Shown here: piece by piece, positions 3,263 through 23,729 of the stretch | Position numbering within the stretch: position 1 is the first letter of the stretch | Layout of the letters: every line of letters starts with the position of its first letter | IMG/VR virus record: IMGVR_UViG_3300042483_000152 | Location: 1-28,403 of that record | Strand: one strand, 5' to 3' | Source: a virus | Length of the DNA stretch: 28,403 nt | The notes under the pieces: generated by a model | The model's database searches: none | The model's input: only the letters and a program-made list of their open reading frames with translations | Told to the model about the DNA's origin: nothing | Translations under genes and position numbers: made by a program

Positions 3263-6200
3263 TTAGTCTTTGACTGCGCCTAACTCTTCTGGATTATCTT
3301 TATAATCCTTTTTCATTTTATCGGTAGCATATCTCTTAGCTTCACTCATTAAAAGCTTTTTAATCGCTGATTCGCTATCTTTTATAGTTCCTGCTTCAAT
3401 TAATCTTTCTACTTTTTTCTCAAAAGAACGACTTTCTTCATTTTCGTCTATATACTCTTGGATATAATCTTTTCTTTCGGCTACCTTGCTTGGAGTTAGC
3501 TTATATGTAACATTGTTTATTTCCAACGTAAGCGTTTCTGGGATTACATTTGTAATTTGCTCTTTAGCAAAAGAAGTAGCATTTGATTTTAGCTTAGTAA
3601 CTTCTTTATCTAAATTCTCCTCACTTAGTTTATTTAAATTATTTTTATCTTCTTTTATTCTAGCAATAATATATTCAGACCATATTTTTTCATACTTATC
3701 AGATTGTTCTTTAGTCATCTTTACTTGACTATCAGTTTCTAAATTATATATCTCTTGATTAACATCTCCTTGGATATTTAATTTTTTATTTTTTAAGAAC
3801 AACTGCACATCTTTATCTTTTACATAGTTATTCACTCTTGCTCTACGTATATCCTTGCTGTATTCTTGATAACCTAAACCAGATACCCCGATAGGCAAAA
3901 TAAATAAAGCATCTATCGGAGAACCCTCTTTAAATGCTGCAAAAATATCATCTGCGTACATGGGATATATCTTTATTATCTCATAAGGGTCAAATGCTTC
4001 GCCTATCGAATTTTTACCACTAAATGCACTATAAAGATATGAAGTGTTTGGAGCAAGCTTATTTCTCCAGAATGAGCCAACAGATTTTTTAGCAAATTCA
4101 GCATAACTATTAGCATCTTTTTCGCTAACCGTTGGGTCAAATCTATTATACGCTGCATGAACCAATCTAAGGAATGTTCTTATGTAAACACCTTGGCCTG
4201 CGGTTAAATCTATTACTCTTTTACCTATTCTTACTTTCATAAAATCAGGTTCATCATAGTCAAGACTAACGGTAGCCCCAAGTAATGCAGCCACAGCGGT
4301 TGTAACAATTATTTGAGATGCTACGTACCCAGCCATATCTTTGAGTGCTTCAACCCTTACGGTTTTATCAACACTTGGATTTAAATAGTAAAATGGGTTT
4401 AATTTTCTAAAGGTAGATGAATAAAGCCTTGCGCCATAAAAAACAGTTCCCAAGGTTTCTTTAATCATGCTGCCCTCTTTACTTGGCTGCTTGTCAGACA
4501 AAATCGGTAATTTACCCCTACCTGTATCTGTCATTACCCTTGCGGCCGCCTGCTCATACGCTTCTTTTGAGTTTTCTCTTGTTTTGCCTTGAGATAATAA
4601 AAATCTTACTTGACGCTGATACAATAAAAATCTTGCATAATTTGTCCAAGCCGCAGCTGCTCTTGCGGAAATCTTTATACCTGCTCCTAAAATTGGTATT
4701 CGCTGAACAAAACCTTTAACTGGGTGGCTTTCATCTCTTAGCTCTATATTATTGCTACCTAAATCAGTATAAACAATACCATCGTCTTTGCTTCTTAAAA
4801 AATCAGGGTTTTTTTCAATATCATACATTAATCTATTATATCTCTTTTCAGAGAACATAGTATTTAGCATTTTATTGTAAGCATCAACACCTATGTTTAT
4901 TGTTCTTGGATTAAGCATAATTGAAACACCTTGTCTAAGAGGTATAGAAATATCAATAGACGTTTGGACAACCCTTTTTATTTCGGCTAATTCCCTTAAT
5001 ACAAGCAATCTTTTCCTCCAAGGGCTTAATGCTTCATATTCTTTTTTATCTCTACGTATTCTAGTTTCCTCTTTAAACTTTATGTATTCATCTTTTAACT
5101 TTAATGTTTCATCATCAAGAATTATTGGTATTGGTGCTTCTATAACATCAAATTCACCATTCTCAATTTCTTTCTTTAAATCATTTATTTTGTTCTTATA
5201 GAATGTTTGTCTTGCTTGTAACTTTGATGGGTATGTTAAATCTGGATTACGCTTTTTTATTTCCAAAATAGCTTTTTCTAAAGCTTCAACTTTTTCGCTT
5301 TTTACCCTTTTTTGAACAAGATTCTTGGTTTCTAAAATACCCTTTTCTAATTGCTCAACTTTAATTTCTAATTTCGCCTGCATTTCTAAATCGCGAATTT
5401 CTGCAAGTTTTGCATTTTTTGTTTTTCGCGTATTAGGGTATTGCCCTGCAAGCATCATCTTTACATCAAGCTCGGTTAGTTCAGGTATATCGTTTATAAA
5501 TTCATCTCTAATCCCTTTTACAATTTCTTTAAGTTCGTATATGCCTTCATCTGCGTAACTTTGAAGCATTTTTTTAGCAAATGGGGCTAATGCGATTAGC
5601 TCTCTTTGATAAGGAACTATGACTGCACTATACGAGTTTCTTATTTTTCTTAATTCTTCCCTAGCATCAGAAACATATTGTTGTCTTTTTTGTTTAAAAT
5701 CTCCTTTTACTTCTTTTCTTTTGATTATTTTAGATTGTAATTTTTTGTTTAGAGCCTCTTCAATAGTATTTTTTTCTAGCTCCTCATATTTTTCTAATGA
5801 TTTTTTAGCCTTGTTGTATTTTTCAGTAAGGTCTTTAATTTCATCTTCTGAAAGGTCTGCATATCTGTTTTCTTCATCAAGATAGGAAGCTAAATTATCT
5901 TCAACCGCAATCAACCCATCAAATGCTTGCACAGTTCTTCCTGCACTAGTCTTCAAGATATCTAAGGCACTCATTAAGTCCTTTCGTTCTTGAAGCAATT
6001 CTGGAGTTGGGTTATTGTTTATACGAGCAGTAAGAGAGATAAAATACCTTCTTAGCAACTCTATTTCAACATCTGATGCTTTAGGGTCTTTATTTATTCT
6101 TTTTATAAGTTTTGGCACACTATACCCCTCTTCTAGTAACCTTGTGGCTTCTTCTTCTAACGCCGCCCTGCTTTTTACTTCATACTGATATTGCTCTTCA

Positions 6201-9200
6201 CCAAGCTCTTCACGCTGTCTTTGGGCTTCTTTTTTAGTAATCCCCATTACACCAAACTCTTCCTTATTTTTTTCAGCCTGTATCTTTTCAGCTTCAGGTA
6301 TGAAGTCAGCTAAAGTTTTCTTCCCTTTATCATTTGCTTCATTCCAAGCATCTCTTACCTCTTGTGTTACAGATTCGCCAATACTTTTTGCAAACTCGTC
6401 TATATTTGGCTTTATATTAGCTAAACCTGATTGAACAATCTGTTTAATGTAAGCCTTGGCTACACCAACCAATGCCTTGTGGTATTCAAATAAAGCTTTT
6501 GCGTTTTGTTCAGGGTCAGAATAAATACCTAAGTTTTTATTCAACTTGCTTAATGCTGCACTTGCTTCTTTTAACTTTTCTTTTGCTTGGGTTAGCTCAT
6601 TCTTGAATAATGGAATACCTTCCTTAACTGCTTGTTTAAGTTCAGGAGTTATGTCTATTGAGTATTGGGTTCTAGCTCCTGCCTCGCCCTCTGTTTCGCC
6701 TGTATAAATTACTTTAATATTCTTTAAATCATATCCTAACTCCTTCGCTACCTGATTAGGGGTTTTATAGTTTTCTGGCATTTTTTTGGATTCGTTACCA
6801 TCTTTATCTATAAGTGTAAACTCACCATCAAAACTTCCTAAAAATTTATTGGTTTTATTATCCCACATCCTAAAACCGCTACGCTGAGTAGCAAGGTCAA
6901 TAACCTTCGGCTCTTGCTTAAACAAAGTCTTAGCTACGTTACCTACAATACCTAAGCTACCTTCTGATGGAGAACCGTAGAACCCTTTCATGCCTTTACC
7001 ACCAACTTTTAAATCCGCCCCTTGAAGTGTTATATTTTCTCCTTTGGGTGTAGAAAGTATTTTATCGGCATAATCTTTACCAATTACGTTATCTAATCTT
7101 TGACCCTTGTAGTTCCCTTCTCTTATAATTCCGTTTTCTACTTCCAAATTCTCGGTTGTACCATTTGATAGTTTAATATCTACAAAAAACAATCCATCAA
7201 CATCTTCTACCGCTTCTACATCAATTTTATCTACTTGCTTTGATAAATCATACCTATTATTCTGCTGCTCTCCAGTTGTCCACGCAAGTTTATCAGCACC
7301 TTGTGCTACTGCTTCTTTTAATGCAGTCTTTAAGCCTAACTTAGTCCATGCGTTTGTGTCTGTTACGAAAGGGGCAGATGGTGTTTTTTGCCCTCTACCT
7401 TCTCCTTTTGCCTCTATAAGTGCAAGTTCAAGCGGTTTTATTTCTTGTTGGTAAATATCTCCTCTTTTTAAAAAATCAGCTTCTTTTGATTGTTTTTCTT
7501 TTGCTTCTTTTATTTTATTTTCAATTTCTTTAATTTTTTCAGATTGACTAACTTCAAAACCTTCTTTCTTCCCTTGCTGCCCCCAATCTGATTGCACCTC
7601 CTCTAAGAATAAAACCTTATTGCCATCTACATCAGTACGAGTATTCATTCTTAGGTGAACAAGGATATTTAATTCGTCAAAGTGGGATGATTGGAAAGAA
7701 GGTTTATTAGCAATTTCTTTATCTCTTAAATCTTCATATTCTTTTTGAAGTTTAGTCCTCTCCAAATAAGATAAATCGTAAAACTGTTCTTCATTATACC
7801 CTTTAGATTTAATAAAATCCCATCTATTAGGCGTTTTTGTCTTTTTAGGCAAAGTAACCAACACCTCTTTGTAGTTCTCTTTCTCTCCTTCTAATTGGTA
7901 TTGCGAGAATTTAGTTCCACGTTCTTCAAATTTATCACTTCTTAATTCATTCATTAATTGAATTAATGCAGGGGCTTTTACCTCTATAAATTCACCTGTT
8001 TCTACAATTTTATATCCATACTTATCTTTTGAGCCATAATATCTCATAGGAGTTGTTCCGTTAGGCTTACTCTTATTTAATATTTCATCTATTTCATCAT
8101 TGCTTCTTCTATGCTGCTGCTTCACAACTTCAACAACCTCAATGCGATTGTTCTTCATGTAGTCAAGCAATTCTTTTCTGCTGATAGGTCGGTCTGCGTT
8201 ACTTTCCAAGAAGTCTTTTACTCCTGTGTAATTTAACTCATCGCCCTCCGTAACGCCACTCAATACCTTCATCCAACCCTTACCTGTGGCTTTGTCGGTC
8301 TTAGCTTCCGCAATACCCTTTTCTAATGGAGAATAAAACCCATTAACAAGTTCTACCGTAGCTTTATCTTCTAATGGTTGAACAATTAAGTCTTCGCCAT
8401 TTACCTCAATTCCGCGCAGTCCTAACTCGCTAATAACCCTATCGTTGTACGCTTTCTTATTCCAAGCACCTCTGTTGTTCTTCTGAATGTAGTTTAATCC
8501 TCTCTTGATTGCATCCGCTACTGCTACGCCTGCTTCAATAGCTATTGCTACTGTTTCTATCGCTCCGTTCCAGACTGCAATAGGAAGGCCTAAAGTAGCG
8601 TCAAACGCTTTACCTTTACTATCTATCTTTGCCCCACGAATTGCAGCTGCCATTTCTTTGGCTTTTGCAAATTTTTCTTTAGCAATTTCTAATTCGGTTT
8701 TACCCTTTTTTGATATTTGCTTTTTCTGATACTCGTATTTTTCCAACGGAGTTTCAAGTTCGCCAAATCCTGCTTCTTCAAATTCTTTTTGTCTAGCTAT
8801 ATCCTCTTCTGTAACACCTATCTCTTCTAGTCGCTCTTTGGCAACAAACGCTTTCCGTTCTGATTCACGACCCTTATTGACCGTTTCAAACCCTTTCTTA
8901 GCAACAGATTTAGGAATAGTCATTTTACCTGTTAAATCAGAATATCTTTCAAGCAACGCTTGCTCTACATTAGACCTAGATTTCTTTTTAAAGCCATCTA
9001 AGTCTTTATATTCTAATATAACATCTATAAAATCGCTTGGTTCAACAGACATGCCTAATTGGTCTTGAAGCTCTTCAGCTTGCACATCCAGTCCTGATGC
9101 CTTCTTATTTGTAGAATCAATATATTTTTTACGAAGCTCTGGAGTTAAGTTATTTAAGTCGTTATATTCTGCCCAATCTTTTTCTCTAATCTTACCAATA

Positions 9201-9490
9201 TACTGCATGATTTGATAATCCTTAAAATTAGTATCTTCGGCAGTAGGCAAACTAAAGTACTTTGCAGCAATTACATTCGGGTCTGTTTCTTTTGAAATAG
9301 CATAAATTTCAGCATCCTCTTCGCTATCAAACTCGGTTCTCTCAACCTGTTCAGCCATCTTTTTGAATTTGCTGTTATCAACAATGCCATCTTGAACCAT
9401 TTGGTCAAGAAGTCCATCATGTAACATAGACGCATACTCTTCAAAAGAGTATTTTTTACCTTCAAACGTAATTATACAAGGACTTGCCAT
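3263..9490 (-). CDS. Giant internal virion / polyvalent-type protein (2075 aa)
   Basis: At 2075 residues this is the largest gene in the window. Residues about 600-760 hold a segment known from very large phage and prophage proteins: HFDELNILVHL, LEEVQSDWGQQGKKEGF and KLAWTTGEQQNNRYDLSKQVD. Residues about 1000-1490 are charged and coiled-coil-like. Residues about 1493-1900 match another region common in such proteins: DISIPLRQG, TGRGKLP, LNPFYYLNPS and a hydrophobic stretch VASQIIVTTAVAALLGATVS near 1727. A second hydrophobic stretch is near 300-320. These are features of large polyvalent proteins, packaged in the head and ejected with the DNA. I see no DxDxD-type polymerase signature. It starts at an ATG 6 bases after the ferritin-like gene. 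Biochemical function is unknown; an internal/cargo role is inferred from size, domains and neighbours. Confidence 0.85.
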   Translation of the reverse strand: MASPCIITFEGKKYSFEEYASMLHDGLLDQMVQDGIVDNSKFKKMAEQVERTEFDSEEDAEIYAISKETDPNVIAAKYFSLPTAEDTNFKDYQIMQYIGKIREKDWAEYNDLNNLTPELRKKYIDSTNKKASGLDVQAEELQDQLGMSVEPSDFIDVILEYKDLDGFKKKSRSNVEQALLERYSDLTGKMTIPKSVAKKGFETVNKGRESERKAFVAKERLEEIGVTEEDIARQKEFEEAGFGELETPLEKYEYQKKQISKKGKTELEIAKEKFAKAKEMAAAIRGAKIDSKGKAFDATLGLPIAVWNGAIETVAIAIEAGVAVADAIKRGLNYIQKNNRGAWNKKAYNDRVISELGLRGIEVNGEDLIVQPLEDKATVELVNGFYSPLEKGIAEAKTDKATGKGWMKVLSGVTEGDELNYTGVKDFLESNADRPISRKELLDYMKNNRIEVVEVVKQQHRRSNDEIDEILNKSKPNGTTPMRYYGSKDKYGYKIVETGEFIEVKAPALIQLMNELRSDKFEERGTKFSQYQLEGEKENYKEVLVTLPKKTKTPNRWDFIKSKGYNEEQFYDLSYLERTKLQKEYEDLRDKEIANKPSFQSSHFDELNILVHLRMNTRTDVDGNKVLFLEEVQSDWGQQGKKEGFEVSQSEKIKEIENKIKEAKEKQSKEADFLKRGDIYQQEIKPLELALIEAKGEGRGQKTPSAPFVTDTNAWTKLGLKTALKEAVAQGADKLAWTTGEQQNNRYDLSKQVDKIDVEAVEDVDGLFFVDIKLSNGTTENLEVENGIIREGNYKGQRLDNVIGKDYADKILSTPKGENITLQGADLKVGGKGMKGFYGSPSEGSLGIVGNVAKTLFKQEPKVIDLATQRSGFRMWDNKTNKFLGSFDGEFTLIDKDGNESKKMPENYKTPNQVAKELGYDLKNIKVIYTGETEGEAGARTQYSIDITPELKQAVKEGIPLFKNELTQAKEKLKEASAALSKLNKNLGIYSDPEQNAKALFEYHKALVGVAKAYIKQIVQSGLANIKPNIDEFAKSIGESVTQEVRDAWNEANDKGKKTLADFIPEAEKIQAEKNKEEFGVMGITKKEAQRQREELGEEQYQYEVKSRAALEEEATRLLEEGYSVPKLIKRINKDPKASDVEIELLRRYFISLTARINNNPTPELLQERKDLMSALDILKTSAGRTVQAFDGLIAVEDNLASYLDEENRYADLSEDEIKDLTEKYNKAKKSLEKYEELEKNTIEEALNKKLQSKIIKRKEVKGDFKQKRQQYVSDAREELRKIRNSYSAVIVPYQRELIALAPFAKKMLQSYADEGIYELKEIVKGIRDEFINDIPELTELDVKMMLAGQYPNTRKTKNAKLAEIRDLEMQAKLEIKVEQLEKGILETKNLVQKRVKSEKVEALEKAILEIKKRNPDLTYPSKLQARQTFYKNKINDLKKEIENGEFDVIEAPIPIILDDETLKLKDEYIKFKEETRIRRDKKEYEALSPWRKRLLVLRELAEIKRVVQTSIDISIPLRQGVSIMLNPRTINIGVDAYNKMLNTMFSEKRYNRLMYDIEKNPDFLRSKDDGIVYTDLGSNNIELRDESHPVKGFVQRIPILGAGIKISARAAAAWTNYARFLLYQRQVRFLLSQGKTRENSKEAYEQAAARVMTDTGRGKLPILSDKQPSKEGSMIKETLGTVFYGARLYSSTFRKLNPFYYLNPSVDKTVRVEALKDMAGYVASQIIVTTAVAALLGATVSLDYDEPDFMKVRIGKRVIDLTAGQGVYIRTFLRLVHAAYNRFDPTVSEKDANSYAEFAKKSVGSFWRNKLAPNTSYLYSAFSGKNSIGEAFDPYEIIKIYPMYADDIFAAFKEGSPIDALFILPIGVSGLGYQEYSKDIRRARVNNYVKDKDVQLFLKNKKLNIQGDVNQEIYNLETDSQVKMTKEQSDKYEKIWSEYIIARIKEDKNNLNKLSEENLDKEVTKLKSNATSFAKEQITNVIPETLTLEINNVTYKLTPSKVAERKDYIQEYIDENEESRSFEKKVERLIEAGTIKDSESAIKKLLMSEAKRYATDKMKKDYKDNPEELGAVKD

Positions 9491-9496
9491 AAATTA

Positions 9497-9997
9497 TTAT
9501 GCGAATAGCTTTTTCTCTAAAAGTAATAGGTTCATTTTGTCTTTAGGGTTTACACCCTCTAGCATGTTTAGCTTGTCAGAATATTCTGCTACTGCTAAAC
9601 GCTGGATTGTTCTATAATGTTGCAAGAAATCAAAGGTACATAAATCTCCTGTTTTAAAGACTTTCATACTTGTATCTTCGTATTCCTCATACAACTTGTA
9701 TTCAATCACATAGGCCTTATCTAATGCGGCCACAAGGTCTGTAAATTCAGATGAAGGGGTTTCAATCTTGGGTAGATTAACTATTACGTTCCAATCTACA
9801 AGATATTTCTCAATACCTGCTGCATGTTTGAACTCTTCCTCGCTTTCGTGTGCGAAAAACTCTGCTGCCTTAAAATAGCCAACCCCTTGACACCAATTAC
9901 TAATTGAACGATACAAATAAGCCGCATCAAATTCATCTTTAAGTCTTGGTAACAATAGCTTTACTATTTCTTCTGGTAGTTTAATAGGTTTTTTCAT
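9497..9997 (-). CDS. Ferritin-like di-iron protein
   Basis: This 166-residue all-helical protein resembles bacterial ferritin (FtnA type, usually about 165 residues). Ferritins oxidise Fe(II) and store iron in a 24-subunit shell. Aligned by eye with E. coli FtnA, all ferroxidase A/B ligands are present: Glu22, Glu55, His58, Glu99 and Gln132. Of the third (C) site, Ile131, Leu134 and Ala135 replace acidic residues. FLQHY and LPKIETPSSEF match the helix-D and loop regions of ferritin. I chose the ATG at 9997; an in-frame TTG at 10012 would overlap the upstream gene and add five residues. It lies 5 bases after the 905-residue gene and 6 before the 2075-residue gene, so it is expressed with internal virion proteins. 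It could protect DNA from Fenton damage, be packaged, or have lost storage function; context does not decide. Confidence 0.8.
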   Translation of the reverse strand: MKKPIKLPEEIVKLLLPRLKDEFDAAYLYRSISNWCQGVGYFKAAEFFAHESEEEFKHAAGIEKYLVDWNVIVNLPKIETPSSEFTDLVAALDKAYVIEYKLYEEYEDTSMKVFKTGDLCTFDFLQHYRTIQRLAVAEYSDKLNMLEGVNPKDKMNLLLLEKKLFA

Positions 9998-10002
9998 ATT
10001 AT

Positions 10003-12720
10003 TTATGGGCAATTACCCTTTTTTGTTATTAATCCCTTTTCTTCTAATTGCTTACTGATATCTTTCCAGTTGTCATCAATGTATTTTATTGATGGATTTT
10101 GCTCTAAGAATGTCTTTCTTTTAGCCGACAAAGTGCGTTTTTTTGAAGAACCTTCCGTACCACTAATATCGTAGAATAAATCGACTGCTTTTTTAAATGC
10201 TAGTCTTGTTGCAACTCTTGGCTTTGGTAATGGTTTTGCTTTTGCAGGTGCTTCTTTCTTAGGCAATAAAGGAGTAATAAGCTTATCGTACCTATCGTAT
10301 ATCTCGTCAAACTTCTTTAAGTCTTTAGCGTCTGTAATCTTAGTTCTATCTACTTTGCCATCCGTTAAATACTGCTCTGCTTTAGGTAAAGCTGTCTTTA
10401 GTTCAGCTTGTTCGTCTGCTCTTAGTTGTTCTACTTGTTGTACAGGGGTTACTTCTTCTGCCTTGACACCTTCTTCGGTAACGCCTTTAGGTTTTGCTTC
10501 GGGTTCTCCTTGCTCCACTTCTTCGCCAACTTTGGCTCTTGACTGTACAGGTACTTGACCTGCTGCTTGCTTTTGAATGGCATCTTGTGTTGGTTTAGGT
10601 GTTAATAAATCTTCTACTGCTTTTACTAATTCAGGGTTGCTGCCATCTGCTTTTGCTTTGTGGTAGGCTTCTGAGATGTCTTGAACTTGTATATCAACAT
10701 TTGAGCCTAATGTACTATTGAAAAAATCAAGATTATTGTTAATAAGTCCAAAGTAATCTTCATTACTTAAACTATCCAACGCCTTAATCGTACTCTCTAC
10801 ATCTTTTAAAGCATCTACGGTAGGTTCTTGTGTTGGTTTAGTTTGTTGTTCTAATGCAGCTAGTTCTTCTTCTATTGCATTTCTTTCGTCTACAAGAGAT
10901 GAAGACTTATTAATTATTTCGTTTAGCTTTATCTCGTTTTCTGATTGTGGTTGGCCTACTCTTCTATCTTCATTATTTACAATCTCAACTAATCTGTTTT
11001 GCTCTGGAACAAGCAAATCAATTTCTTCTTGCAAAGAATCTATTTCAGCTTTCTTAGTTTCTATATCTTCCGATACAACTTCTTCAGGCTTACCTATTTC
11101 AGCTTCTTCAGGAACAGGAATTATATTCTCTGCTCTCTTGTTTAAGTCCTTCTGCTCTTGCTCCCATGTAGCTTGGTCTATCTCTTCTGCTTGAAACTTT
11201 CTATTGGATTCCCTAACTTCTTCTCCTATTGATTCTTCTGTATCAAAGGTTGGTTGAGGAACATCAGGAACTTTTTTCAAAATTTCATCTATCTCTTTTT
11301 CAATAGCTTCTTTTTGAAATCCTAAAATAGTTTTTGTACTTTCAGATATATCAGAATTTTCAATTGCGGATTCTACTTTGTCGAGTCTTGAATTTAATTC
11401 ACTAATCTGTATTTTTTGATTATCTTCTAAATTTTCTGTTTCTTTCCTATCAACATTTACTAAATCATCTATTTTTTCATTAGTATTTTCTAATACTTCA
11501 AGAATAGCTTCCTTAGCATCTGGCTCAATATTATCATTTGCCAAATCTTGCAGCGCTTCCGTTTTTTGCTGCTCTAATTCATTACCCTTTACTTTGTTTT
11601 TAGGGTTAATAAGTCTTTTAGCTAATCTAACACCACCAGAAACGGCAGCAGTACCTGCAAAACCTTTTGCGTAAGCCTCTAGACCTTGAACAGAAGCCAT
11701 TTTATCTGCAGCGGCTATCGCAGCATCTTCTACGCTAAGTCCGTTTGCCAAGGCTAAATTAGCTTCATCTAGACCTACTTGAACCCATTCTGTTAAACCC
11801 TCTTTATTCCATTCTGTTCCTAAGAGCAAGGCTTTCTTAAATCCACTTCCCGTAAGTTTCTTGCTTATGGCTTTTGTAAATCCCTTCAAACCAATCTTTT
11901 CCATGGAATACGCAACACCGCCTATTGCAGCAGGAACTCCAAAATCAGCATCTCCACTTTTGTATAAATCCTCTGTTGAAACACCCTTTGCTTTTGCTTT
12001 TGCAGTATTGTAGTCATAAAGTCCGCCACCAACCATTTCGGTAACTAGTAACGAACCACCAGATAAAGCACTAGGAATTATTGTTGAAACTAACCCCCCA
12101 GCAGCATCAACAACGCCAGCCGCTAAACCTGGTATATTAAAGTTTTGTGCATTCTCAACAATCCCAGCAGTAGGCTTTGTTTGTGTACCTAAATAATCTA
12201 ATGACTGAAGCGATTCGTTTCGTATTTGTTCTGGCGTTCTTCCTGTAACAATATCAAATCCATCGCTAGAGAACTCTATTCTAGGTAAAGAAGTCAATTT
12301 GCCTGTCAAATCTTTCCCTAAAACTTTTTCAAATACATCGACAGATGTAAGACTTAATCTAGGCAATACTCCCTTTAGTGAATTAGCCACATTGTAAACA
12401 GTATTCTTAATACTTTCTAAATTGCTTAATGGCTTTTCCGCTTTTGGTAAAGCTGGCTGCTTCTGAACAGGTGGTTTATAGTCCTTTACTTGTTCTTTGT
12501 AAAGCTCTTGCCCGGATTGAGTTAAAAAACTAGGCGTACTAGTATCGACTTGGGTTTGGAAAGGCAGAGAACCAGTCTTTGAAGGCTTCGTACCAGTCGG
12601 AGCAACGGGTTGAACAGGATTTTTTTTTTCAACGGGTTGATTTCCAAGATATTTATCTGGGTCAAAACCAGATGGTTTTGCATCGCTTTTTAAATATTTA
12701 TCTGGGTCAAATTTTGGCAT
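10003..12720 (-). CDS. Internal virion / cargo protein with duplicated FDPDKYL motif (905 aa)
   Basis: The N-terminus carries FDPDKYL twice (residues 4-10 and 19-25), a motif I associate with the starts of large phage internal proteins. A Pro/Gln-rich linker (about 30-95) follows. Residues about 195-240 form a Gly/Ala-rich hydrophobic segment (LAAGVVDAAGGLVSTIIPSA) with further short ones near 265 and 355, suited to membrane insertion during ejection. Residues about 380-830 are highly charged and coiled-coil-like. The C-terminus (about 840-905) is compact and basic. It lies 9 bases after the 568-residue gene and 5 before the ferritin-like gene. No enzyme motif is visible. The internal/ejection role is inferred from composition and neighbours. 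Confidence 0.75.
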   Translation of the reverse strand: MPKFDPDKYLKSDAKPSGFDPDKYLGNQPVEKKNPVQPVAPTGTKPSKTGSLPFQTQVDTSTPSFLTQSGQELYKEQVKDYKPPVQKQPALPKAEKPLSNLESIKNTVYNVANSLKGVLPRLSLTSVDVFEKVLGKDLTGKLTSLPRIEFSSDGFDIVTGRTPEQIRNESLQSLDYLGTQTKPTAGIVENAQNFNIPGLAAGVVDAAGGLVSTIIPSALSGGSLLVTEMVGGGLYDYNTAKAKAKGVSTEDLYKSGDADFGVPAAIGGVAYSMEKIGLKGFTKAISKKLTGSGFKKALLLGTEWNKEGLTEWVQVGLDEANLALANGLSVEDAAIAAADKMASVQGLEAYAKGFAGTAAVSGGVRLAKRLINPKNKVKGNELEQQKTEALQDLANDNIEPDAKEAILEVLENTNEKIDDLVNVDRKETENLEDNQKIQISELNSRLDKVESAIENSDISESTKTILGFQKEAIEKEIDEILKKVPDVPQPTFDTEESIGEEVRESNRKFQAEEIDQATWEQEQKDLNKRAENIIPVPEEAEIGKPEEVVSEDIETKKAEIDSLQEEIDLLVPEQNRLVEIVNNEDRRVGQPQSENEIKLNEIINKSSSLVDERNAIEEELAALEQQTKPTQEPTVDALKDVESTIKALDSLSNEDYFGLINNNLDFFNSTLGSNVDIQVQDISEAYHKAKADGSNPELVKAVEDLLTPKPTQDAIQKQAAGQVPVQSRAKVGEEVEQGEPEAKPKGVTEEGVKAEEVTPVQQVEQLRADEQAELKTALPKAEQYLTDGKVDRTKITDAKDLKKFDEIYDRYDKLITPLLPKKEAPAKAKPLPKPRVATRLAFKKAVDLFYDISGTEGSSKKRTLSAKRKTFLEQNPSIKYIDDNWKDISKQLEEKGLITKKGNCP
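12646..12711 (-). repeat. Duplicated FDPDKYL coding motif
   Basis: Two copies of a sequence coding for FDPDKYL lie 45 bases apart at the 5' end of the 905-residue gene (on the plus strand both contain atatttatctgggtcaaa or a near match). Near-identity at the DNA level suggests a recent duplication or constraint. The motif may be a packaging or docking peptide for head-internal proteins; that is speculation. Confidence 0.7.
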
Positions 12721-15137: not shown

Positions 15138-15440
15138 CTATTTTTTAATTCGGTACTTTTTATAAATTCCCTCTTCCTTCATTAAAGTATGGCAAGCCTT
15201 TATATTTATTGCATAAAACTTCTTTTCGGAAATTCCATAAAATTTTATAAATTCATCTACATTGCATATTAAAGGTCTTTTGTCATAAACCTTGCACTTC
15301 CCATCATCATTAAGCATCTCGCACTTGCCTGTTTTATCCCATGAATAAGGGAATGCCAATTCAGGATTTTCATCTATAATGTCTTTTGCTCTATCTATAT
15401 GCCTGCAACATGCTCCGCACCCAGTGCATGGGAAACTCAT
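15138..15440 (-). CDS. YkgJ-like cysteine-cluster (Zn/Fe-chelating) protein
   Basis: This 100-residue protein has the cysteine pattern of the YkgJ / CxxCxxCC family: Cys5, Cys8, Cys11 and Cys12 in FPCTGCGACCRH, then Cys40, Cys49 in DGKCKVYDKRP, and Cys59. Such domains bind zinc or an iron-sulfur cluster; the cellular role is unsettled. It overlaps the upstream gene by TAATG, so it is translationally coupled to the last muzzle-type gene, and is followed by a promoter for the next unit. It is not an obvious structural protein. It may act in the cell (an accessory gene riding in the late operon) or in maturing a virion part; neither can be told from sequence. Confidence 0.85.
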   Translation of the reverse strand: MSFPCTGCGACCRHIDRAKDIIDENPELAFPYSWDKTGKCEMLNDDGKCKVYDKRPLICNVDEFIKFYGISEKKFYAINIKACHTLMKEEGIYKKYRIKK

Positions 15441-16378
15441 TAACGAACTCCAATAAGCGATTTCTCGGAATGAACCGCAACAGAGAACAGTCTTAATTTT
15501 GTCGATTCGGTAGACACAATTTCCATTAGTAAATAATTACCCTTTAAAACATTTCCGTTTAAGATTTCACCTACGCTATTTTTATCCCTTAGAAATGATG
15601 CGCTATACACGCCTTCTACGGAGTTTATTGTTACAGTTGTTGAACCATCAACAAGGGTTGCTTTAGTGAAGTCAGAGGCCACCAAATCACTTATCTGACC
15701 AAGACTAGTTTCTATACCATCTTCGGTAGTAACCATAAGCATATTGCTTTGCACAGACATACTTTCAAACGTACTTACAAACGCTGCCTGCTGATTGAAT
15801 GGCAGATTTACTATTGTATCATATTGAACACCGTAAAAATTGTTTCTGCTTTCAGAATTGTTTTGGTGTAGATAAAGTTGGCCATTTTTAAATGTGTACA
15901 AATTTATAAACAAACCAAATCCACAATCAGGGTTATAAGTGTAGAAAGAACTCCACTTGTTATTCTCTTCACTATAAACAATGTTGTTACGCTGTTTTTC
16001 GGTTGTTACAACTGCTGTATTTCTAATGTTAAATATTTCTACCGTACAATCAGTATTTGAAAACATTCTAAACCTTGGAGAAGTGCCTGTGCATGTCAAG
16101 GTTTCAATAAAAAATCCACTAGCTATTCGTTGCGCTCCTGCTGTATCACCCATAAATGCTTGCGTATAAAGAACGCTTGCGCTCCCAGTAATGGTTGCTA
16201 TTCTATAAGTTATTTCATAGGTTTTGCCAGCCTCAACAGCAAAGCCATTAAGGTAAATACTACCTGCGTTACATACTTCGTGAGTAGCTACACTACTACT
16301 AAAAGACCAGCCAGTAGTAACGGATTGCGTTACTAAGCTTACATTTAATGGCGTGTTTTCTAATGTTGTAAATCCCAT
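15440..16378 (-). CDS. Tail protein: beta-sandwich plus detached C-terminal part of muzzle/stabilization protein
   Basis: I chose the ATG at 16378 (MGFTTLENTPLN, 312 residues); an upstream in-frame TTG at 16384 falls inside a promoter-like box. Residues 1-120 look like a beta-sandwich of carbohydrate-binding style (WSFSSSVATHEVCN, AGKTYEITYRI). From about residue 128 on, IVYSEENNKWSSFYTYNPDC, TFKNGQLYLH and RNNFYGVQYD are, from my knowledge of crAss-like and related phages, the end of the large muzzle/stabilization protein. Here that end is a separate gene, 43 bases after the stop of the 1726-residue protein and in a different frame. I infer the two products assemble together at the distal tail. 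Confidence 0.7.
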   Translation of the reverse strand: MGFTTLENTPLNVSLVTQSVTTGWSFSSSVATHEVCNAGSIYLNGFAVEAGKTYEITYRIATITGSASVLYTQAFMGDTAGAQRIASGFFIETLTCTGTSPRFRMFSNTDCTVEIFNIRNTAVVTTEKQRNNIVYSEENNKWSSFYTYNPDCGFGLFINLYTFKNGQLYLHQNNSESRNNFYGVQYDTIVNLPFNQQAAFVSTFESMSVQSNMLMVTTEDGIETSLGQISDLVASDFTKATLVDGSTTVTINSVEGVYSASFLRDKNSVGEILNGNVLKGNYLLMEIVSTESTKLRLFSVAVHSEKSLIGVR

Positions 16379-16381
16379 ATT

Positions 16382-16389
16382 CAAATATA
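16382..16389 (-). promoter_or_regulatory. Promoter-like box TATATTTG very close to a start codon
   Basis: GTTATATTTGAATATG on the minus strand places a TAnnTTTG match only three bases before the ATG at 16378. If active, the transcript would be nearly leaderless or start inside the gene, so activity is less certain than for the other boxes. It lies exactly at the point where the muzzle is split into two genes. Confidence 0.35.
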
Positions 16390-16421
16390 ACCTATAATTT
16401 TAATCTTATTGATATTTAATA

Positions 16422-19400
16422 TTATGCTGTTACTAATGCAATTGCATTTGTTGCTCTTGTGTAAGTAAATGTTAGTATAACTGCACCTACACTTATACCC
16501 ACCGTTCCATCTCCTCCACCAATAACTTCTGCTGACCATGATGACGCTGGTGGCCCCCCAGAAGGTATTGTTGTCGGTATGTATGTACCCGGCTCTCCAG
16601 TCATTGTCATTGACGTATCTGCAAACTCTCTTTGCCATAGACCAGTTTTTGTTCCTGCCGTAGCTGACCGCCCTCTGATTTTAAATACAAATGTAGGTAT
16701 AGCTACATCATCTGGGTATTGAGCAATTAGTTTACCTATATTGAACAAGAATCTTCTTTTTAATGTAGTCTGGTCTATATTATCTGATGCTAATATGTAT
16801 GCCGATGGGGCTGGGTCTGTTTCTAAGTAGAAGTTTAATCCATCTCTTGCTGCAATAACATTTGATTCTGAAACCCCAGCTGTGTCAATATAAGCACAAA
16901 CATCTAATGTAGCATCATTAAACATATCTACTGAAATTATCGCATTAATAGTATCAACCAAACACGTTGCATTTGTATTTGCATAGTCCTGACCGTTTGC
17001 TAGTATATCTGCTTCCGCTTGATTGTCAGCATCTAATTGCGATATTAAAGAGGTATATGTGTCTGCTGGTACAGTATATGTTACATAAGTACCACTAGAG
17101 CCTTCTGTACAGTCATCTTTTTGAAATGATTCACTAATTTCAATGTTGCTATAAACCGCGTCTGGAGTATTGATATAACTAATATTGTAAGAAGTTTTAG
17201 GTATTGCATTAAACTCTCCAGACATTCCATTTACTACTGTAATGGTTGTATTGTAAGCTCCTCCTAGTGGAACATTTGTTAATGTGAAGTCAAGGTCATA
17301 AATGGAGTTATTGTTAATAACCAACTTGCCTGTATTAGCATCATCTAACCAATTGAATCCATTGTTGTTCTGTGGTTGAGAAAACTGCGCTGTGTACAGT
17401 ACAAATTCGGCATCGGTATTGTCAATAAATCTAAAGTCTACAACAGGGAAAGAGCTATTTGTTGTTAATGGTGCAGACGATGAATTGTCCATACTAAACA
17501 ACGATGCTATATAATCGGTAGAATCACTATTAGATAATGCAACAGCATCATACACAACTCCGCCAACGGCAGTAAAGCTATAACTAGCTAAATCTGGTTC
17601 TAATGGGTCAGTCTTTAGTCCACTATTGTAAATCTCTGTACTATCTGCTTCAATAACAAGTGAAGCACTAGAACCTGTTGGCCAAGGATATCCTGTGACG
17701 CTATGAGCTATTGCAATTGTTACCGAATCCCCTTCAAATACTGGAGATATGACTCCTGTACTTGTAGCAAAAATATTGCCTATGTTGATTCCATTAACAA
17801 CTGGAACAAGTATTAAATCTACATGAGGGTCTGCATCTTTAGTTAGTGAGTAGTTTACTGTAACTGGTAAAGCCTCTCTAGTTAATATAGAGTAAGTATC
17901 AGAATATGTTCCTACCGTTAATGTAGTTCCAACTGAAGTATCGTAAGACGCTGATGATGTTCTTCTAACTTGTGCAGTTTGGCTATTGGTTATAGTCCCT
18001 GCTGTTGAAACCCAAGTTCCACCATTTATTCTATATTCTCCACCAACAATTGAAATATCTACCAATCCTGTAATTCCTGTTATTGTAACAATGTTTGAGC
18101 TGTACATCGTACTAATTTCAGCTTCGGTTACATCGGTAAATACAAATGCAGTCGGAGTTTCATCCTTAGTTGTTACACTAAATGTAGAAGACACAGAACC
18201 CACTGTAAGCGTTGTAGATAAAGTAGTGTTCTCTATTGCAGACGATGTTAATCGAACTGAAACATTTGAGTCTGGATTTACAAATCCCGATGTGTTTGTC
18301 CACGCTTCTTCGTTGATACGATACTGTCCGCTTCCAGAAATACTTATTGGAGCAGGTATATTATTACCTATAATCAATACAGGATTGGATTCGTATAATG
18401 TGCTGTAATTCGCACCCATAATAGTATTCAAATCAAATAGATTAGGGTTTGAGTTACCCTCTTCAATCGTAAGACATACTTTTTTTGTTGTAGCAGAACC
18501 ACCACTTGGCGTAAAGGTAAACGTAAAGTTGTCTGCTCCTGTTTCACCAAAATCTGGAGTGTAAGTAGCTATGCCTGTTGTAGAATTATACACAGCAACT
18601 CCTTTAGTTCCGTTTGTAACAAGAGATATGCCAGACGCAGGTATTACATAAGTATCGTCTAACTGCCAGCTAACTGTATTAAAAGGTATAGAAACTAAAA
18701 CATCCCCTGACGTTTCATTGGTAAGTAAATACTCATTATAAAATATATCGTAGTACCCTATAATCTTTTTACCAGATTCATATACTTCCTGCAATGTCTT
18801 TTTAAAGTACTTACTCATTTTGCCAGAAATAGTATCTACGCCATCAAGCCCTGCTCGAATAGGTTCGCTTCTAAAAGGGTCTACAAAGTAAATATTGTTA
18901 TTCCATTCAGCGTAGCTTTCTTTTGCGTTGCCCATACCAATATTCTTGCCATTGTAACGAACAAAGTTAAAAAGCCTGACAGATATAGCATATTGCGCTG
19001 TTGCTTGCTGGTCTTCTAAAACCGATTGAAAAACAGGAACATATCCTACCTTTAACTCTTGAAGTACAACCAATACGTTGTTTCTTTGGCGTATTTTTCT
19101 TATCCAGCCGTAGTTTGATGAGGTTTCACCATCACCATCTCCATAAATATTTTCAGGGTAAAACTTTACAAGCCCATTTACTATTGAACCTCTTTGAAAA
19201 ACATCTGAATATCTAATACTCCCTCTTCTTTCTATTCTACCTAATTCATCGTTATATGTTCTTGGCTTTCCGTAAGAATAAAATTCGCTTGCGTAAAAGT
19301 CACTGAAGTTAAAATCTTCAACTACAATAAGGTCTGTTTGGGTTAAATCTACGGCATTAGCCATCTGTCTAGTTTTTATATAGACATCTCCTGTTTTTAT

Positions 19401-21602
19401 TGTTCCAGAAGTTACGCTATGCGCCCCATCAATAATTGGGTAAGACAACCCTATTTCATAAAATAATTGCTCCGCATATTCCTGCTGACCGTTTACGGTA
19501 GTTACTCGTTTTTTAGGTGTATAGATTTCAAGAAGTGCATTATTGTTGCCTAAAACAAGAGGGTCTACATCGGCAGGCTTTTGAACCTTTAAATAATAAT
19601 TAGTAACAGGAGGTTCATCAGTAGTTACGTCTATTGTAAAATCTACAACCTCAACATCAATTTTATTAAACCAATTTTTAACTGTTGTATCATCTCCTAT
19701 ATTGTAATAAACAAAAGTACATCTATCGCCTGGGCTATACTCATAGTTTAAAACACTTGACGAATTTTTCTCATTGAATTTTAATAATGAGTTTATATTA
19801 AATGTAAAATAATTCGCATCAGTTCTTGTATAATCTATTTCTCCTTGAACCCACAATGTTGTTTGGTGTGTGGTATTTTTAGACAAACCCCACCCATAAT
19901 ACGCTGCATCGGCAGGAGGGTTATGGTTTATTTGCCAAGTAATCATAGAAGCAAGTCCTTCTATTTGTGAGTAAGAAGGTGTTTTTATAATATACCTATC
20001 ATCAGTACATATAGGGAAGTATCTTCCCCATCTGTCCTTATACCACAAAAATGCTTGATAACTTGAATTTGATTTTAAGGTAGGCCTGCTTACTAATTCA
20101 CCAGTTCCTGCCCCAAACAACTCAACACTTACGGATAATGTTTGTTCTTTTTTACCACTAGGCGTTTCATTAGAACGTCTTGTAGAATAAGTTAATATAA
20201 CCTCATCTCCAGAAACACTAACGGAAAATGGGAACAGCAATGATACACCAAAAGATGTAACAGCAGCTAATGTATTATTATTTTCAGTATCTTTAACTGT
20301 ATATATATAATCAGAACCTGGGTATAGATTGCCATCTAAATCCGATACAACAATTTTAAATTTATCCCCAGTTTTAGCTACCCCTCTATAATAAACCGTA
20401 GTTCTTCTAAAATTAGGTTTAAATATGCTATCATTGACTACTACCTGAACCCAATTAGCTACCCTTAAAGCTCCTAAAGGATTTTCTGGCACTTTAGCTA
20501 CATTTGGATTATAAGTAACCGATTCAATCAAAACATCTGTTTCTGGTCTTGGATAGCCTTCTGTAAGTCCACCTAATGCTAAAAGATTTCCATTAACATT
20601 TTCTAATGTTTCGCACTTTAAAGGAACAAAATCATAAGGTATATCCGTTATTAAGGGGTCTTCATTTATATAAAGTCCATCATTGTAAAAACAAAAACTG
20701 TATATATTTGTTACAGGGTCGTAAACTTCACGAATTTCACCCTCAAAACTTATAACTAAATTTGGTAAAGCTAATATTGCAGCCCTTGTTATGCTTTTTA
20801 TTGAGAAAAAATCTTGATTCCCTATTCTTGCAATAACATTTAAAGACTTAGCTCTATTCGTTCCAATATTTACATGAACAATAAGCACGTTATTTTTTGT
20901 AACAACTGAACCTACCGCTTGCGTATCTTCATCTTCTGGAACTTCTCTTTTACTTATAATTGAGAAAGAGCTATATTCATCATCCAAATAAATATATTGA
21001 TACATAAATTGGAATAGCCTTTCCTTTAATAAGTTAGAGCCTCTTGTTGAATCGCTTCTATACTCTACTAAAGGAGGTGTCATCGGTTGCGCCTTGATAA
21101 TCAAAAAATCATCTTGTTCAAGAGGGCCATAACCACCAGCTTCTAATCTTGTTAGGTTGGTTATACATGGCTGATTTTTACCATCTGTCCACGCTAATAA
21201 GTAATCATTAATTAGCTTAATGTCATTTACATAATATTCAGGGTCTAATGGAAGAATATCTTTATCGCCACTATCCGTAAGGTTAGTAAATATATTTTCT
21301 TGCGTATTGTTATCGTAATTTAATTTCGCTATAACATTGTACTGTTGCGAATTGTAAATAAAAGAATACGCTGTACGTGTTACTTCAAACCCTGCCGCAC
21401 CAATAGTCTTATTCAATCCTGTTGGCAAAGTATTTGTAATTAAAGCATTGCTTTCTGGATTAGTGGCAAGACCTTCTTCGCTTTCAGAAGTTCCCGTAAC
21501 ACGAACATTGTACGCATCTACGTAATCATTCTGTTGAATAAATTCAACAGCATCATCCGTATTCATTCCACCTTGACGAAATAACTTTATATTCTCTGCC
21601 AT
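16422..21602 (-). CDS. Muzzle / tail stabilization protein with Ig-like and DUF5977-like extension (1726 aa)
   Basis: Residues 1 to about 960 resemble the large distal tail protein of crAss-like podoviruses: an N-terminus with FRQGGMNTDD and DAYNVR, then beta-rich repeats and a conserved-looking end (FVDPFRSEP, GKKIIGYYDIFYNEYLLT, about 941-960). This part probably forms the beta-propeller nozzle closing the tail. The remainder is unlike it: an Ig/cadherin-like domain (about 965-1045, with YTPDFGETGADNFTFTF), two homologous domains of about 95 residues (1049-1146, 1147-1243, each with YRIN(E/G)xxW and LTVG), further beta-rich regions, and a DUF5977-like domain (about 1490-1546, SFQKDDC ... 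YTVPADTY ... ANTNATC). These modules are typical of surface adhesins of Bacteroidota. The ATG at 21602 lies 4 bases after the preceding gene. The usual C-terminal muzzle signature is absent here and occurs in the next gene. Confidence 0.8.
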   Translation of the reverse strand: MAENIKLFRQGGMNTDDAVEFIQQNDYVDAYNVRVTGTSESEEGLATNPESNALITNTLPTGLNKTIGAAGFEVTRTAYSFIYNSQQYNVIAKLNYDNNTQENIFTNLTDSGDKDILPLDPEYYVNDIKLINDYLLAWTDGKNQPCITNLTRLEAGGYGPLEQDDFLIIKAQPMTPPLVEYRSDSTRGSNLLKERLFQFMYQYIYLDDEYSSFSIISKREVPEDEDTQAVGSVVTKNNVLIVHVNIGTNRAKSLNVIARIGNQDFFSIKSITRAAILALPNLVISFEGEIREVYDPVTNIYSFCFYNDGLYINEDPLITDIPYDFVPLKCETLENVNGNLLALGGLTEGYPRPETDVLIESVTYNPNVAKVPENPLGALRVANWVQVVVNDSIFKPNFRRTTVYYRGVAKTGDKFKIVVSDLDGNLYPGSDYIYTVKDTENNNTLAAVTSFGVSLLFPFSVSVSGDEVILTYSTRRSNETPSGKKEQTLSVSVELFGAGTGELVSRPTLKSNSSYQAFLWYKDRWGRYFPICTDDRYIIKTPSYSQIEGLASMITWQINHNPPADAAYYGWGLSKNTTHQTTLWVQGEIDYTRTDANYFTFNINSLLKFNEKNSSSVLNYEYSPGDRCTFVYYNIGDDTTVKNWFNKIDVEVVDFTIDVTTDEPPVTNYYLKVQKPADVDPLVLGNNNALLEIYTPKKRVTTVNGQQEYAEQLFYEIGLSYPIIDGAHSVTSGTIKTGDVYIKTRQMANAVDLTQTDLIVVEDFNFSDFYASEFYSYGKPRTYNDELGRIERRGSIRYSDVFQRGSIVNGLVKFYPENIYGDGDGETSSNYGWIRKIRQRNNVLVVLQELKVGYVPVFQSVLEDQQATAQYAISVRLFNFVRYNGKNIGMGNAKESYAEWNNNIYFVDPFRSEPIRAGLDGVDTISGKMSKYFKKTLQEVYESGKKIIGYYDIFYNEYLLTNETSGDVLVSIPFNTVSWQLDDTYVIPASGISLVTNGTKGVAVYNSTTGIATYTPDFGETGADNFTFTFTPSGGSATTKKVCLTIEEGNSNPNLFDLNTIMGANYSTLYESNPVLIIGNNIPAPISISGSGQYRINEEAWTNTSGFVNPDSNVSVRLTSSAIENTTLSTTLTVGSVSSTFSVTTKDETPTAFVFTDVTEAEISTMYSSNIVTITGITGLVDISIVGGEYRINGGTWVSTAGTITNSQTAQVRRTSSASYDTSVGTTLTVGTYSDTYSILTREALPVTVNYSLTKDADPHVDLILVPVVNGINIGNIFATSTGVISPVFEGDSVTIAIAHSVTGYPWPTGSSASLVIEADSTEIYNSGLKTDPLEPDLASYSFTAVGGVVYDAVALSNSDSTDYIASLFSMDNSSSAPLTTNSSFPVVDFRFIDNTDAEFVLYTAQFSQPQNNNGFNWLDDANTGKLVINNNSIYDLDFTLTNVPLGGAYNTTITVVNGMSGEFNAIPKTSYNISYINTPDAVYSNIEISESFQKDDCTEGSSGTYVTYTVPADTYTSLISQLDADNQAEADILANGQDYANTNATCLVDTINAIISVDMFNDATLDVCAYIDTAGVSESNVIAARDGLNFYLETDPAPSAYILASDNIDQTTLKRRFLFNIGKLIAQYPDDVAIPTFVFKIRGRSATAGTKTGLWQREFADTSMTMTGEPGTYIPTTIPSGGPPASSWSAEVIGGGDGTVGISVGAVILTFTYTRATNAIALVTA
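17870..18455 (-). repeat. Two tandem Ig-like protein repeats in the muzzle extension
   Basis: Two consecutive segments of about 95 codons encode related proteins: each has a xYSS/xYES-(N)-(I)VxI entry, YRINEEAW or YRINGGTW, xVRxTSSA, TTLTVG and a closing FSVTT or YSILT. They differ widely at the DNA level, so the duplication is old or was acquired as a pair. Confidence 0.75.
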
Positions 21603-21606
21603 AATA

Positions 21607-22380
21607 TTATGCTCTAGCGGTTAAGCCAGTCAAACTTCTCTTCTTGGCTGTAAATTCTGAAGCGTAAGCCTTATTAATACGCATTTTTGCTAAACGCATT
21701 TCTCTATAATACTCGTTTTTGTATTCTCTTACCTGACCTGCACTAAACTTTTTAACCATATCAGTAGAACTTTTCCATCTAATATAACACATAAACGCCT
21801 CTTCAGCCATCGTGTTAATAAAATAATCGTCATCAGTTTCCTTGTAGCCATCGGATAGGTATTCAAAAAGTATTTCTTCATATTTGTTTTTTGGATTAAG
21901 CAAAATGACTTTTGCTCCCTCATCAATATCAAAGTCGCAAATTTGTGCTGTACCACTATTTAAACCAAATAGAGTATAAGACGTTCCGCCCCACCAGTAA
22001 TTACTGTAAAGATACGGATAAGGCAATGGTGCTACATAGTTGCCTATCGTGGTAAGCTCTGGAACACCTGCATTTCTATCTTCTTCATTCCGATAAATAG
22101 CATGATATTGCGAAAGTTGCTCATTCTTTGTAAATGTTATAATCTCTCCTCTTTCGTTAACAATACCCATTTTTGAATAGGTAAGATAATCTACTGGAAG
22201 ATTTACCGTATTATTTGGATTAACAGGAAGCAACACAGTCATCATTTGACCTGTAATATCTAAATTGAATGCACGAGAACCACGAACACCAATATTATAC
22301 AAACGTCTAAATTGATGCGAGCTTTGGTCTGCGCTATCTAAAAATTGTGCTACTAATTGTCTTAATCCTATCGTTGCCAT
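21607..22380 (-). CDS. Tail ring / adaptor protein (257 aa)
   Basis: The protein (MATIGLRQLVAQFLDSADQS) is of mixed alpha/beta character. It resembles structural proteins encoded just before the muzzle in crAss-like phages, which form rings below the portal. A Tyr-rich region (residues about 117-140, PYPYLYSNYWWGG) and a basic Arg/Lys/Tyr-rich helical end (residues 210-250) are visible. Spacing to both neighbours is 2-4 bases. The exact ring position cannot be told from sequence. Confidence 0.7.
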   Translation of the reverse strand: MATIGLRQLVAQFLDSADQSSHQFRRLYNIGVRGSRAFNLDITGQMMTVLLPVNPNNTVNLPVDYLTYSKMGIVNERGEIITFTKNEQLSQYHAIYRNEEDRNAGVPELTTIGNYVAPLPYPYLYSNYWWGGTSYTLFGLNSGTAQICDFDIDEGAKVILLNPKNKYEEILFEYLSDGYKETDDDYFINTMAEEAFMCYIRWKSSTDMVKKFSAGQVREYKNEYYREMRLAKMRINKAYASEFTAKKRSLTGLTARA

Positions 22381-22382
22381 AA

Positions 22383-23024
22383 TTATTGTACCGTTGATAA
22401 GTCACGAGCATCATTCATTACATCTTCTGGTAACCCCTTTGATACTCTTAACATTTGAAATATCTTTCCTATAATCTCACTCTCCACACTTTTTGGAACA
22501 TTAAGAGTAGCAGTTAGCAAATCGCCAGTACTACTTATAGCTCCAACCATTGTGATATTTACCGAAGTAAACATGTATTCTTGTATATTATCGTAATACA
22601 GTTTGCCATTCTCAATATAAGACAAAATAAAGCCACGCACAGCAGGCAACATATCCTGCATAAACTTATCCTTGTTTTTCATTAAAACTATCTGCCTACG
22701 TCTTCCCTGTATGCCTAGAGGAGTAATACTAACTATCTCTTGGTTGTTTGGTAACGCAGCAGGTATTTGTGGTAAAACAGAATAGTTCTGCTTTAGTAAA
22801 CTATCGTAAGCAACAGGAACACTTGTAAATGTAGATGTGAACGTATCATTTGCATAAGTAGTTTCACCTAAGTTACTATTCTCAAATGCGTTTTTCCTTG
22901 CCTGAACAGCAACTTCTTGCGCCACCAATTCAGCAATATACCTTAAACTGAAAGATGCGTCATCAGAAGGAATGCCACCATATAGCATTGTCCTAATTTG
23001 TTCACTTATTTGCTGATATGTCAT
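22383..23024 (-). CDS. Tail ring / adaptor protein (213 aa)
   Basis: The N-terminal pattern (MTYQQISEQIRTMLYGGIPSD, then SFSLRYIAELVAQEVAVQAR) resembles ring proteins of crAss-like phages that dock on the portal. A basic RRRQIV stretch follows near residue 107. The start ATG overlaps the stop of the upstream gene (ATGA), giving translational coupling, and the next gene starts 2 bases later. The role is assigned from sequence style and from location between head genes and muzzle. Confidence 0.7.
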   Translation of the reverse strand: MTYQQISEQIRTMLYGGIPSDDASFSLRYIAELVAQEVAVQARKNAFENSNLGETTYANDTFTSTFTSVPVAYDSLLKQNYSVLPQIPAALPNNQEIVSITPLGIQGRRRQIVLMKNKDKFMQDMLPAVRGFILSYIENGKLYYDNIQEYMFTSVNITMVGAISSTGDLLTATLNVPKSVESEIIGKIFQMLRVSKGLPEDVMNDARDLSTVQ

Positions 23025-23674
23025 TTCGCTTGTTGGGTTTCTAATTGTCCAAATTGTTGCAACATGCCATCTCTCATGTTCATTGCAATATCTTGTAATG
23101 CAAGATAAATAATATTATCTAAATCTGTTTGATTCCACTCTGGCTGAACAGATAAGGTTGCATTATAAACAGGTCTGCCACTAACCAATGTGTATGCCCA
23201 AACACTTGTTGTAGGAGCTTTTAAATACACTAAAACAGCACTCGTTAAATTAGTAGGATAGAACTGTAAATATGTTTTGTATTCCGTATAAATAGGAAAT
23301 GTAGATGTAGGAGCTTCTATCTTTGATGATAAATGGTTTGCCAATCTATCTTTTTCTACTCTAACTATTGGGTATTGTTCAGTACCAACGACATGTGTTA
23401 AAGCATCTACGTGAAATAAATCAGCAGGAAATGTATATTTTCCAGCCGAAGAACCAGTAGTAGGCAAAGTCAAATCAATTGGGTCACTAAAAAATCTACT
23501 TAAAGCATCAGATATACGCTGTGTCTTATAATATTGTGCATAAAGAGAATTATAATATTTAATTTCCGCTCTAGGGAATATCAAATTAAAATCATTTGGA
23601 GAAATATTCCCCAAAAAACCGCTCTTATTGGCACGATACTGAATTAACTTATATATTTCGTTGATGTTTGCCAT
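23021..23674 (-). CDS. Head-tail adaptor / ring protein (217 aa)
   Basis: I place the start at the ATG at 23674 (MANINEIYKLIQYRANKSGF). An in-frame upstream start at 23707 would overlap a promoter-like box and add an atypical Cys-containing peptide. The protein has an N-terminal helix, a central beta region (KYTFPADLFHVDALTHV) and a C-terminal helix (DLDNIIYLALQDIAMNMRDG), a plan shared by connector proteins in Bacteroidota podoviruses. It is the first gene of the neck/tail unit and overlaps the next gene by ATGA. Confidence 0.7.
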   Translation of the reverse strand: MANINEIYKLIQYRANKSGFLGNISPNDFNLIFPRAEIKYYNSLYAQYYKTQRISDALSRFFSDPIDLTLPTTGSSAGKYTFPADLFHVDALTHVVGTEQYPIVRVEKDRLANHLSSKIEAPTSTFPIYTEYKTYLQFYPTNLTSAVLVYLKAPTTSVWAYTLVSGRPVYNATLSVQPEWNQTDLDNIIYLALQDIAMNMRDGMLQQFGQLETQQAK

Positions 23675-23693
23675 TGACGTTTTTTTACTTAAA

Positions 23694-23701
23694 CAAATGT
23701 A
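23694..23701 (-). promoter_or_regulatory. Promoter-like -7 box TACATTTG
   Basis: On the minus strand GTTACATTTGTTTAAG lies 19 bases before the ATG at 23674 and 34 bases downstream of a hairpin terminator. It matches TAnnTTTG and shares TTTAA downstream with the box at 3234. Placed between a terminator and the first neck gene, it is the best-supported promoter in the window. Confidence 0.65.
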
Positions 23702-23729
23702 ACACAAAAAAGATAATAGTTTTTTAAAT

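Follow-up and report, generated by a model that had tools for sequence, protein, structure and literature searches.

The locus raises the question of whether one conserved tail protein, the crAss-like muzzle, can be made as two separate chains. In the virus DNA of 28,403 nucleotides analysed here (IMG/VR record IMGVR_UViG_3300042483_000152, hereafter the window), the initial annotation had proposed that a muzzle gene was divided in two, with a surface-type domain on each side of the cut. Our analysis confirmed the division in the window and supported its interpretation as a two-chain muzzle.

The two muzzle genes of the window

The features of the locus are summarized in Table 1. The open reading frame of the second chain was listed as 15440-16384 (-) with a TTG start at 16384 (314 aa); the true start is probably the downstream ATG, because the closest relatives start there. 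The spacing and the change of frame between the two genes were as first described, judging from the positions of this ATG and of the first-chain stop (TAA at 16424-16422 (-)).

Table 1 Features of the muzzle locus in the window.
Feature	Position	Strand	Basis
Second-chain gene	15440-16378	(-)	ATG start 16378, 312 aa
Muzzle C-terminus, second-chain residues 131-312	15443..15988	(-)	C-terminal profile match; contiguous in phi38:1 gp97; gp44 1200-1279
CBM-like beta-sandwich, second-chain residues 1-121	16016..16378	(-)	pLDDT up to 90 over 22-121
Gap, first-chain stop to second-chain ATG	16379..16421	(-)	43 bases; frame changes; read from sequence
First-chain gene	16422-21602	(-)	ORF, 1726 aa
Appended adhesin-like array, first-chain residues 962-1726	16425..18719	(-)	Missing from unitary muzzles
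DUF5977 domain, first-chain residues 1484-1547	16962..17153	(-)	Pfam PF19404, E 2.8e-25; nearest relative L088 diverges just before
Third module, first-chain residues about 1147-1243, repeat of the preceding Ig-like one	17874..18164	(-)	L016 matches
Two beta/Ig-like modules, first-chain residues about 989-1149	18156..18638	(-)	pLDDT 80-92; Ig-fold matches Z 6-7
Muzzle body, first-chain residues 1-961, ending ...KKIIGYYDIFYNEYLLT	18720..21602	(-)	phrog_14478 E 7e-54; profiles; hhalign 99.4%
Upstream virion structural gene	21607..22380	(-)	phrog_13977 E 4e-16
Ring/adaptor-like structural gene	23021..23707	(-)	phrog_14543 E 1e-13; weak SU10_adaptor, below cut-off

Muzzle profiles matched residues 6-350 (N) and 714-961 (M) of the first chain and ended at 961, in agreement with the annotated limit of the muzzle similarity at about residue 960. 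The following 765 residues, described initially as some 770 residues of Ig-like and DUF5977-like modules, were found to contain Ig/cadherin-like modules and DUF5977. The usual end of the muzzle was said to sit in the next gene, behind a beta-sandwich of about 120 residues; indeed, the C-terminal muzzle profile matched residues 135-267 of the second chain, and the structure model of the preceding part is a CBM-like sandwich.

Both parts aligned to one unitary protein in related phages, which agrees with the claim that one conserved tail protein became two. Cellulophaga phage phi38:1 gp97, a single chain of 1324 aa, matched first-chain residues 1-350 and 712-960 and then, unbroken, second-chain residues 118-214; residues 712-960 correspond to gp97 828-1072, and residues 118-214 to gp97 1063-1160. 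Of the second chain of phage phi46:3 (241 aa), 98% aligned to the final 240 residues of gp97. Furthermore, profile-profile alignment, on which the link to crAss001 gp44 rests, tied both ends of the muzzle to that protein. With hhalign, the environmental family including the window aligned to the gut crassvirus muzzles in the N-terminal region (99.4% probability, 313 columns) and in the M-C region (99.4% probability, 294 columns), and the second chain aligned to gp44 1200-1279 (64.9%). PDB sequence searches with the first chain, phi38:1 gp97, and a 9-row profile gave no match, and that with the second chain gave two chance-level matches only. An additional C-terminus beside a complete muzzle, which the initial annotation had named as evidence against the division, was absent from the 26 records searched by second-chain alignment, split genomes of 58-76 kb among them; each record had one C-terminal region, which in phi46:3 was matched as two adjacent pieces.

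The window shares with gp44 (PMC10172136) the profile of both ends and the place in the tail gene block, and Ig-like insertions and length variation are known in that muzzle. However, gp44 is a single chain that makes a tight turn where the muzzle of the window is cut, whereas the latter comes as two chains, one free end bearing a large array of modules and the other a CBM-like domain. Because the single chain is an architectural trait of the known gp44-like muzzles and the window has two ORFs in different frames, its muzzle is a variant of this family and not a standard member.

Two structural genes lie just upstream of the muzzle, although the ring/adaptor identity is weak. Directly after the second chain, and overlapping its stop, a small CxxCxxCC protein, putatively Zn/Fe-chelating, is encoded at 15138-15440 (-). 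A ferritin-like protein (Pfam Ferritin, E 1.3e-20) is encoded within the structural gene block at 9497-10012 (-), and a 2075-aa protein at 3263-9490 (-) had no match in Pfam or PHROGs.

The cut mapped to about residues 1197-1200 of gp44, within ...NDVYFTYK / DHCLCYSELINQFTSF..., and would correspond to the hairpin that joins strands two and three of a late propeller blade; this topology was read from the sequence alignment and the strand pattern, not from coordinates. The muzzle body of the first chain would run from the N-terminal region, where the propeller starts, to the end of the second strand of the cut blade, and second-chain residues 131-312 would provide the other two strands and everything after. 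According to the gp44 report (PMC10172136), the IG2 domain ends at 1021, so that the cut lies after it, and the muzzle is conserved, its length varying by insertions in the crass and IG2 regions.

Introns and inteins are numerous in crassviruses (PMC7886860), and the halves might be rejoined by an intein, a split intein, or a self-splicing intron to give a mature muzzle of one chain. We consider this very improbable. No Rfam intron was matched up to E 0.1 in 15300-19200 or at gathering scores in seven sources, and no intein family of Pfam was found in either window protein. A stop codon and a new start codon separate the halves, which are read in different frames. The second chain of many split phages begins 3-15 residues before the conserved strand, which leaves no space for an intein half, and the extensions are recognisable adhesin-type domains, which also argues against a rejoining of the halves.

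Recurrence of the same cut among relatives

Viral contigs were scanned with the second chain as the seed and the best 80 loci were kept. After near-copies were removed, the 48 non-redundant muzzles comprised 26 with a split at this hairpin and 22 unitary ones, a ratio that is not a prevalence figure given this seeding and selection. In the tree of the shared regions, a one-clade origin of the split rows was rejected (p-AU 3.5e-9). Parsimony gave four changes between the split and unitary states, at least two of which are forced by well supported branches; Maribacter phage Panino was coded here as a simple frameshift, and counting it as split gives five. The clade of the window (L008, L009, L010, L012, and L015; support 100/100) is far from phi46:3 and from the split clade holding most marine contigs. 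What the initial annotation had missed is that, in the sequences compared, the split is no isolated case: the same cut is present in distant lineages, and always with an extension. The tree is unrooted, and the unitary state of gp44 and of the other gut muzzles seen suggests fission as the direction. Three tRNA genes lie just upstream of the muzzle gene in L010 (4504-5025).

The window phage is flavobacterial-type, and the same cut is present in isolates. Phages phi38:1 and phi40:1 have the unitary gp97, whereas phi46:3, phi13:2, phi18:3, and phi19:3 have a split pair. As in the window, these pairs carry the extension on their first chain, with cadherin/Big_9 in the case of phi46:3; they differ in having other extension modules and a second chain without the CBM-like domain. 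The records seen for these pairs carry no split-muzzle annotation.

In phi18:3, the first chain (gp114) and the second chain (gp115) were both identified by MS/MS, as stated in GenBank notes. This supports a two-chain muzzle in the virions of one split lineage; phi18:3 belongs to a lineage other than that of the window, to which the result may extend by analogy. The distance matrices of the two halves agreed in the split forms (r 0.92) and in the unitary forms (r 0.86), which is compatible with joint assembly but is not proof of it, as shared descent also gives such agreement.

These observations also bear on whether the muzzle gene is a degenerate, frame-broken one or an assembly artefact. 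Simple frameshifts do exist in the family: one breaks the muzzle gene in the record of Panino (L004, 7500-7725), and L057 probably has another. However, the same cut occurs in many independent contigs and in the four sequenced isolates, the split genes have long intact reading frames, a conserved second-chain sequence, and, for phi18:3, MS/MS detection, and no intact one-chain muzzle gene was seen in phi18:3 or phi46:3. We hold degeneration or an artefact, like the rejoining of the halves, to be very improbable.

Domains and genes added at the cut

The hairpin linker of the unitary muzzles was 6-102 residues long (median 21), and every split muzzle had a first-chain extension of 121-1075 residues (median 366). 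Pfam domains in the extensions included TSP1, Big_9/cadherin, BACON, and He_PIG, with DUF5977 in the window. The thrombospondin type 1 repeats (TSP1) formed arrays, with 8 copies in L077 and 11 in L079.

AlphaFold2 modelled the array of the window confidently only over about residues 989-1149; the remaining array and much of the body gave no usable model. The middle part (about residues 700-850), where a gp44-like muzzle would have its 'crass fold' domain, had a pLDDT below 50 and no PDB sequence match, and Foldseek/VIA listed no muzzle for a model whose muzzle part was too poor to judge. The first Ig-like module was cadherin/Big_9-like, with a match to NF012211 (tand_rpt_95) at E 5e-4, below its curated cut-off. 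Residues 1053-1149 and 1147-1243 each matched L016 at 53% identity.

The array was homologous only to the extensions of L088 and L008-L016. Within the clade of the window, the first 180 or so appended residues were common and the proximal two modules conserved, with the remainder differing. Between the window and L088, the bodies were 75% identical and the appended parts 90% identical over 523 residues; the similarity then ended and the distal ends were unrelated. This looks like a replacement of the distal end in a comparison of two sequences of which one, the L088 contig, ends soon after. The extensions of L008 and L009 contain Thr-rich linkers (28-31% Thr). With these linkers and a glycosyltransferase gene between the muzzle halves, the L008 array is possibly glycosylated.

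The best structure match of the second-chain sandwich was CBM16 (2zez; Z 8.4, rmsd 3.5 over 105 residues). CBM16 rows headed the match list, with a Z score near the level reached by common folds. This domain had no Pfam match, and the CBM likeness is that of the fold of the model. When the second chain was folded alone, residues 22-121 were confident and the muzzle part had a pLDDT below 50, which may reflect the shallow alignment (10 rows). A folded CBM-like part next to an unstructured muzzle part would be expected of a piece that needs a partner, although such a model does not prove it.

The extension could also be structural, serving as a spacer, a collar, or an assembly aid of a two-chain muzzle. 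The proximal two modules are kept across the clade, Ig-like domains are often spacers, and the extension length ranges widely, all of which would fit such a role. However, close relatives have different distal ends, built of module types that are common in adhesion and carbohydrate binding; we regard a purely structural extension as unlikely, though well ahead of the two alternatives above. An adhesive function is the reading that we prefer. BACON and Ig-like modules on tail proteins of crAss-like phages (PMC6949934; PMC13370021) are similar in being modular adhesin-type domains of Bacteroidota phages, some of which bind epithelium or mucus. In the accessible parts of these reports, the modules are on other tail or structure-adjacent proteins and no chain break in a muzzle is described.

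The spacing between the halves ranged from 0 to about 3.5 kb and often included further genes. In L008 these encode an MT-A70 methylase and a GT2 glycosyltransferase, and in L041 a GlcNAc transferase (PF11397). Other cuts were found near window residues of about 113 and 185 (L022, L040, and kin) and about 158 (L041 and L072); those near 158 and 185 are close to the IG1 start in gp44. The upstream pieces at these N-terminal cuts each carry 180-1180 extra residues. Muzzles of three ORFs, with a cut near the N-terminal propeller/IG1, were seen in L022, L034, L040, L045, and L048, and in L041, L043, L044, L047, L050, and L072. Because unitary relatives such as L018 have insertions at two of these other cut places, the comparison points to sites tolerant of insertions as the places where cuts arise. 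At their natural C-terminus, the unitary muzzles of L059, L060, and L071 carry 780-1000 extra residues.

Proposed assembly and meaning of the split

Taken together, these findings make it probable that the muzzle of the window consists of two chains, with a propeller closed in trans and free ends that display adhesin domains. The first chain would build the body up to the second strand of the cut blade and then run into the Ig/cadherin-like and DUF5977 array. The second chain would begin with the CBM-like sandwich and continue with the remaining blade strands, followed by the muzzle C-terminus. The two chains would most likely assemble without a covalent link. An internal hairpin would thereby become two free ends bearing predicted binding domains on the tail tip, with up to six copies per free end if the muzzle is hexameric as in crAss001. 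The free ends could act as a cassette site where domains, and even entire genes, are gained and lost, which would tune the binding targets of the phage.

The nozzle protein of T7-type phages also has a propeller and a ring-joining domain, which are common to gp44. It closes the tail with a propeller, as proposed here, but as one chain; this likeness is drawn from the literature and not from sequence. We found no published description of a split or two-gene muzzle in the open-access literature (subscription journals were outside the search).

The recurrence of the same cut in distant lineages therefore looks like an evolved way of mounting adhesins on the tail tip. In a wider form, which we hold to be about evenly balanced, nozzle propellers would have been cut repeatedly into at least two chains at insertion-tolerant loops, with the ring closed in trans and the cuts serving as ports for swappable adhesin domains or genes.

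The muzzle has been described as highly conserved in crassviruses and as the ejection gate. Annotations that call the C-terminal piece a hypothetical protein miss part of it. The hosts of phi18:3 and its relatives are culturable Cellulophaga, which makes the idea directly testable. A two-chain muzzle with an adhesin-type array would be a route by which a hexameric propeller nozzle may gain receptor-binding parts without tail fibres.
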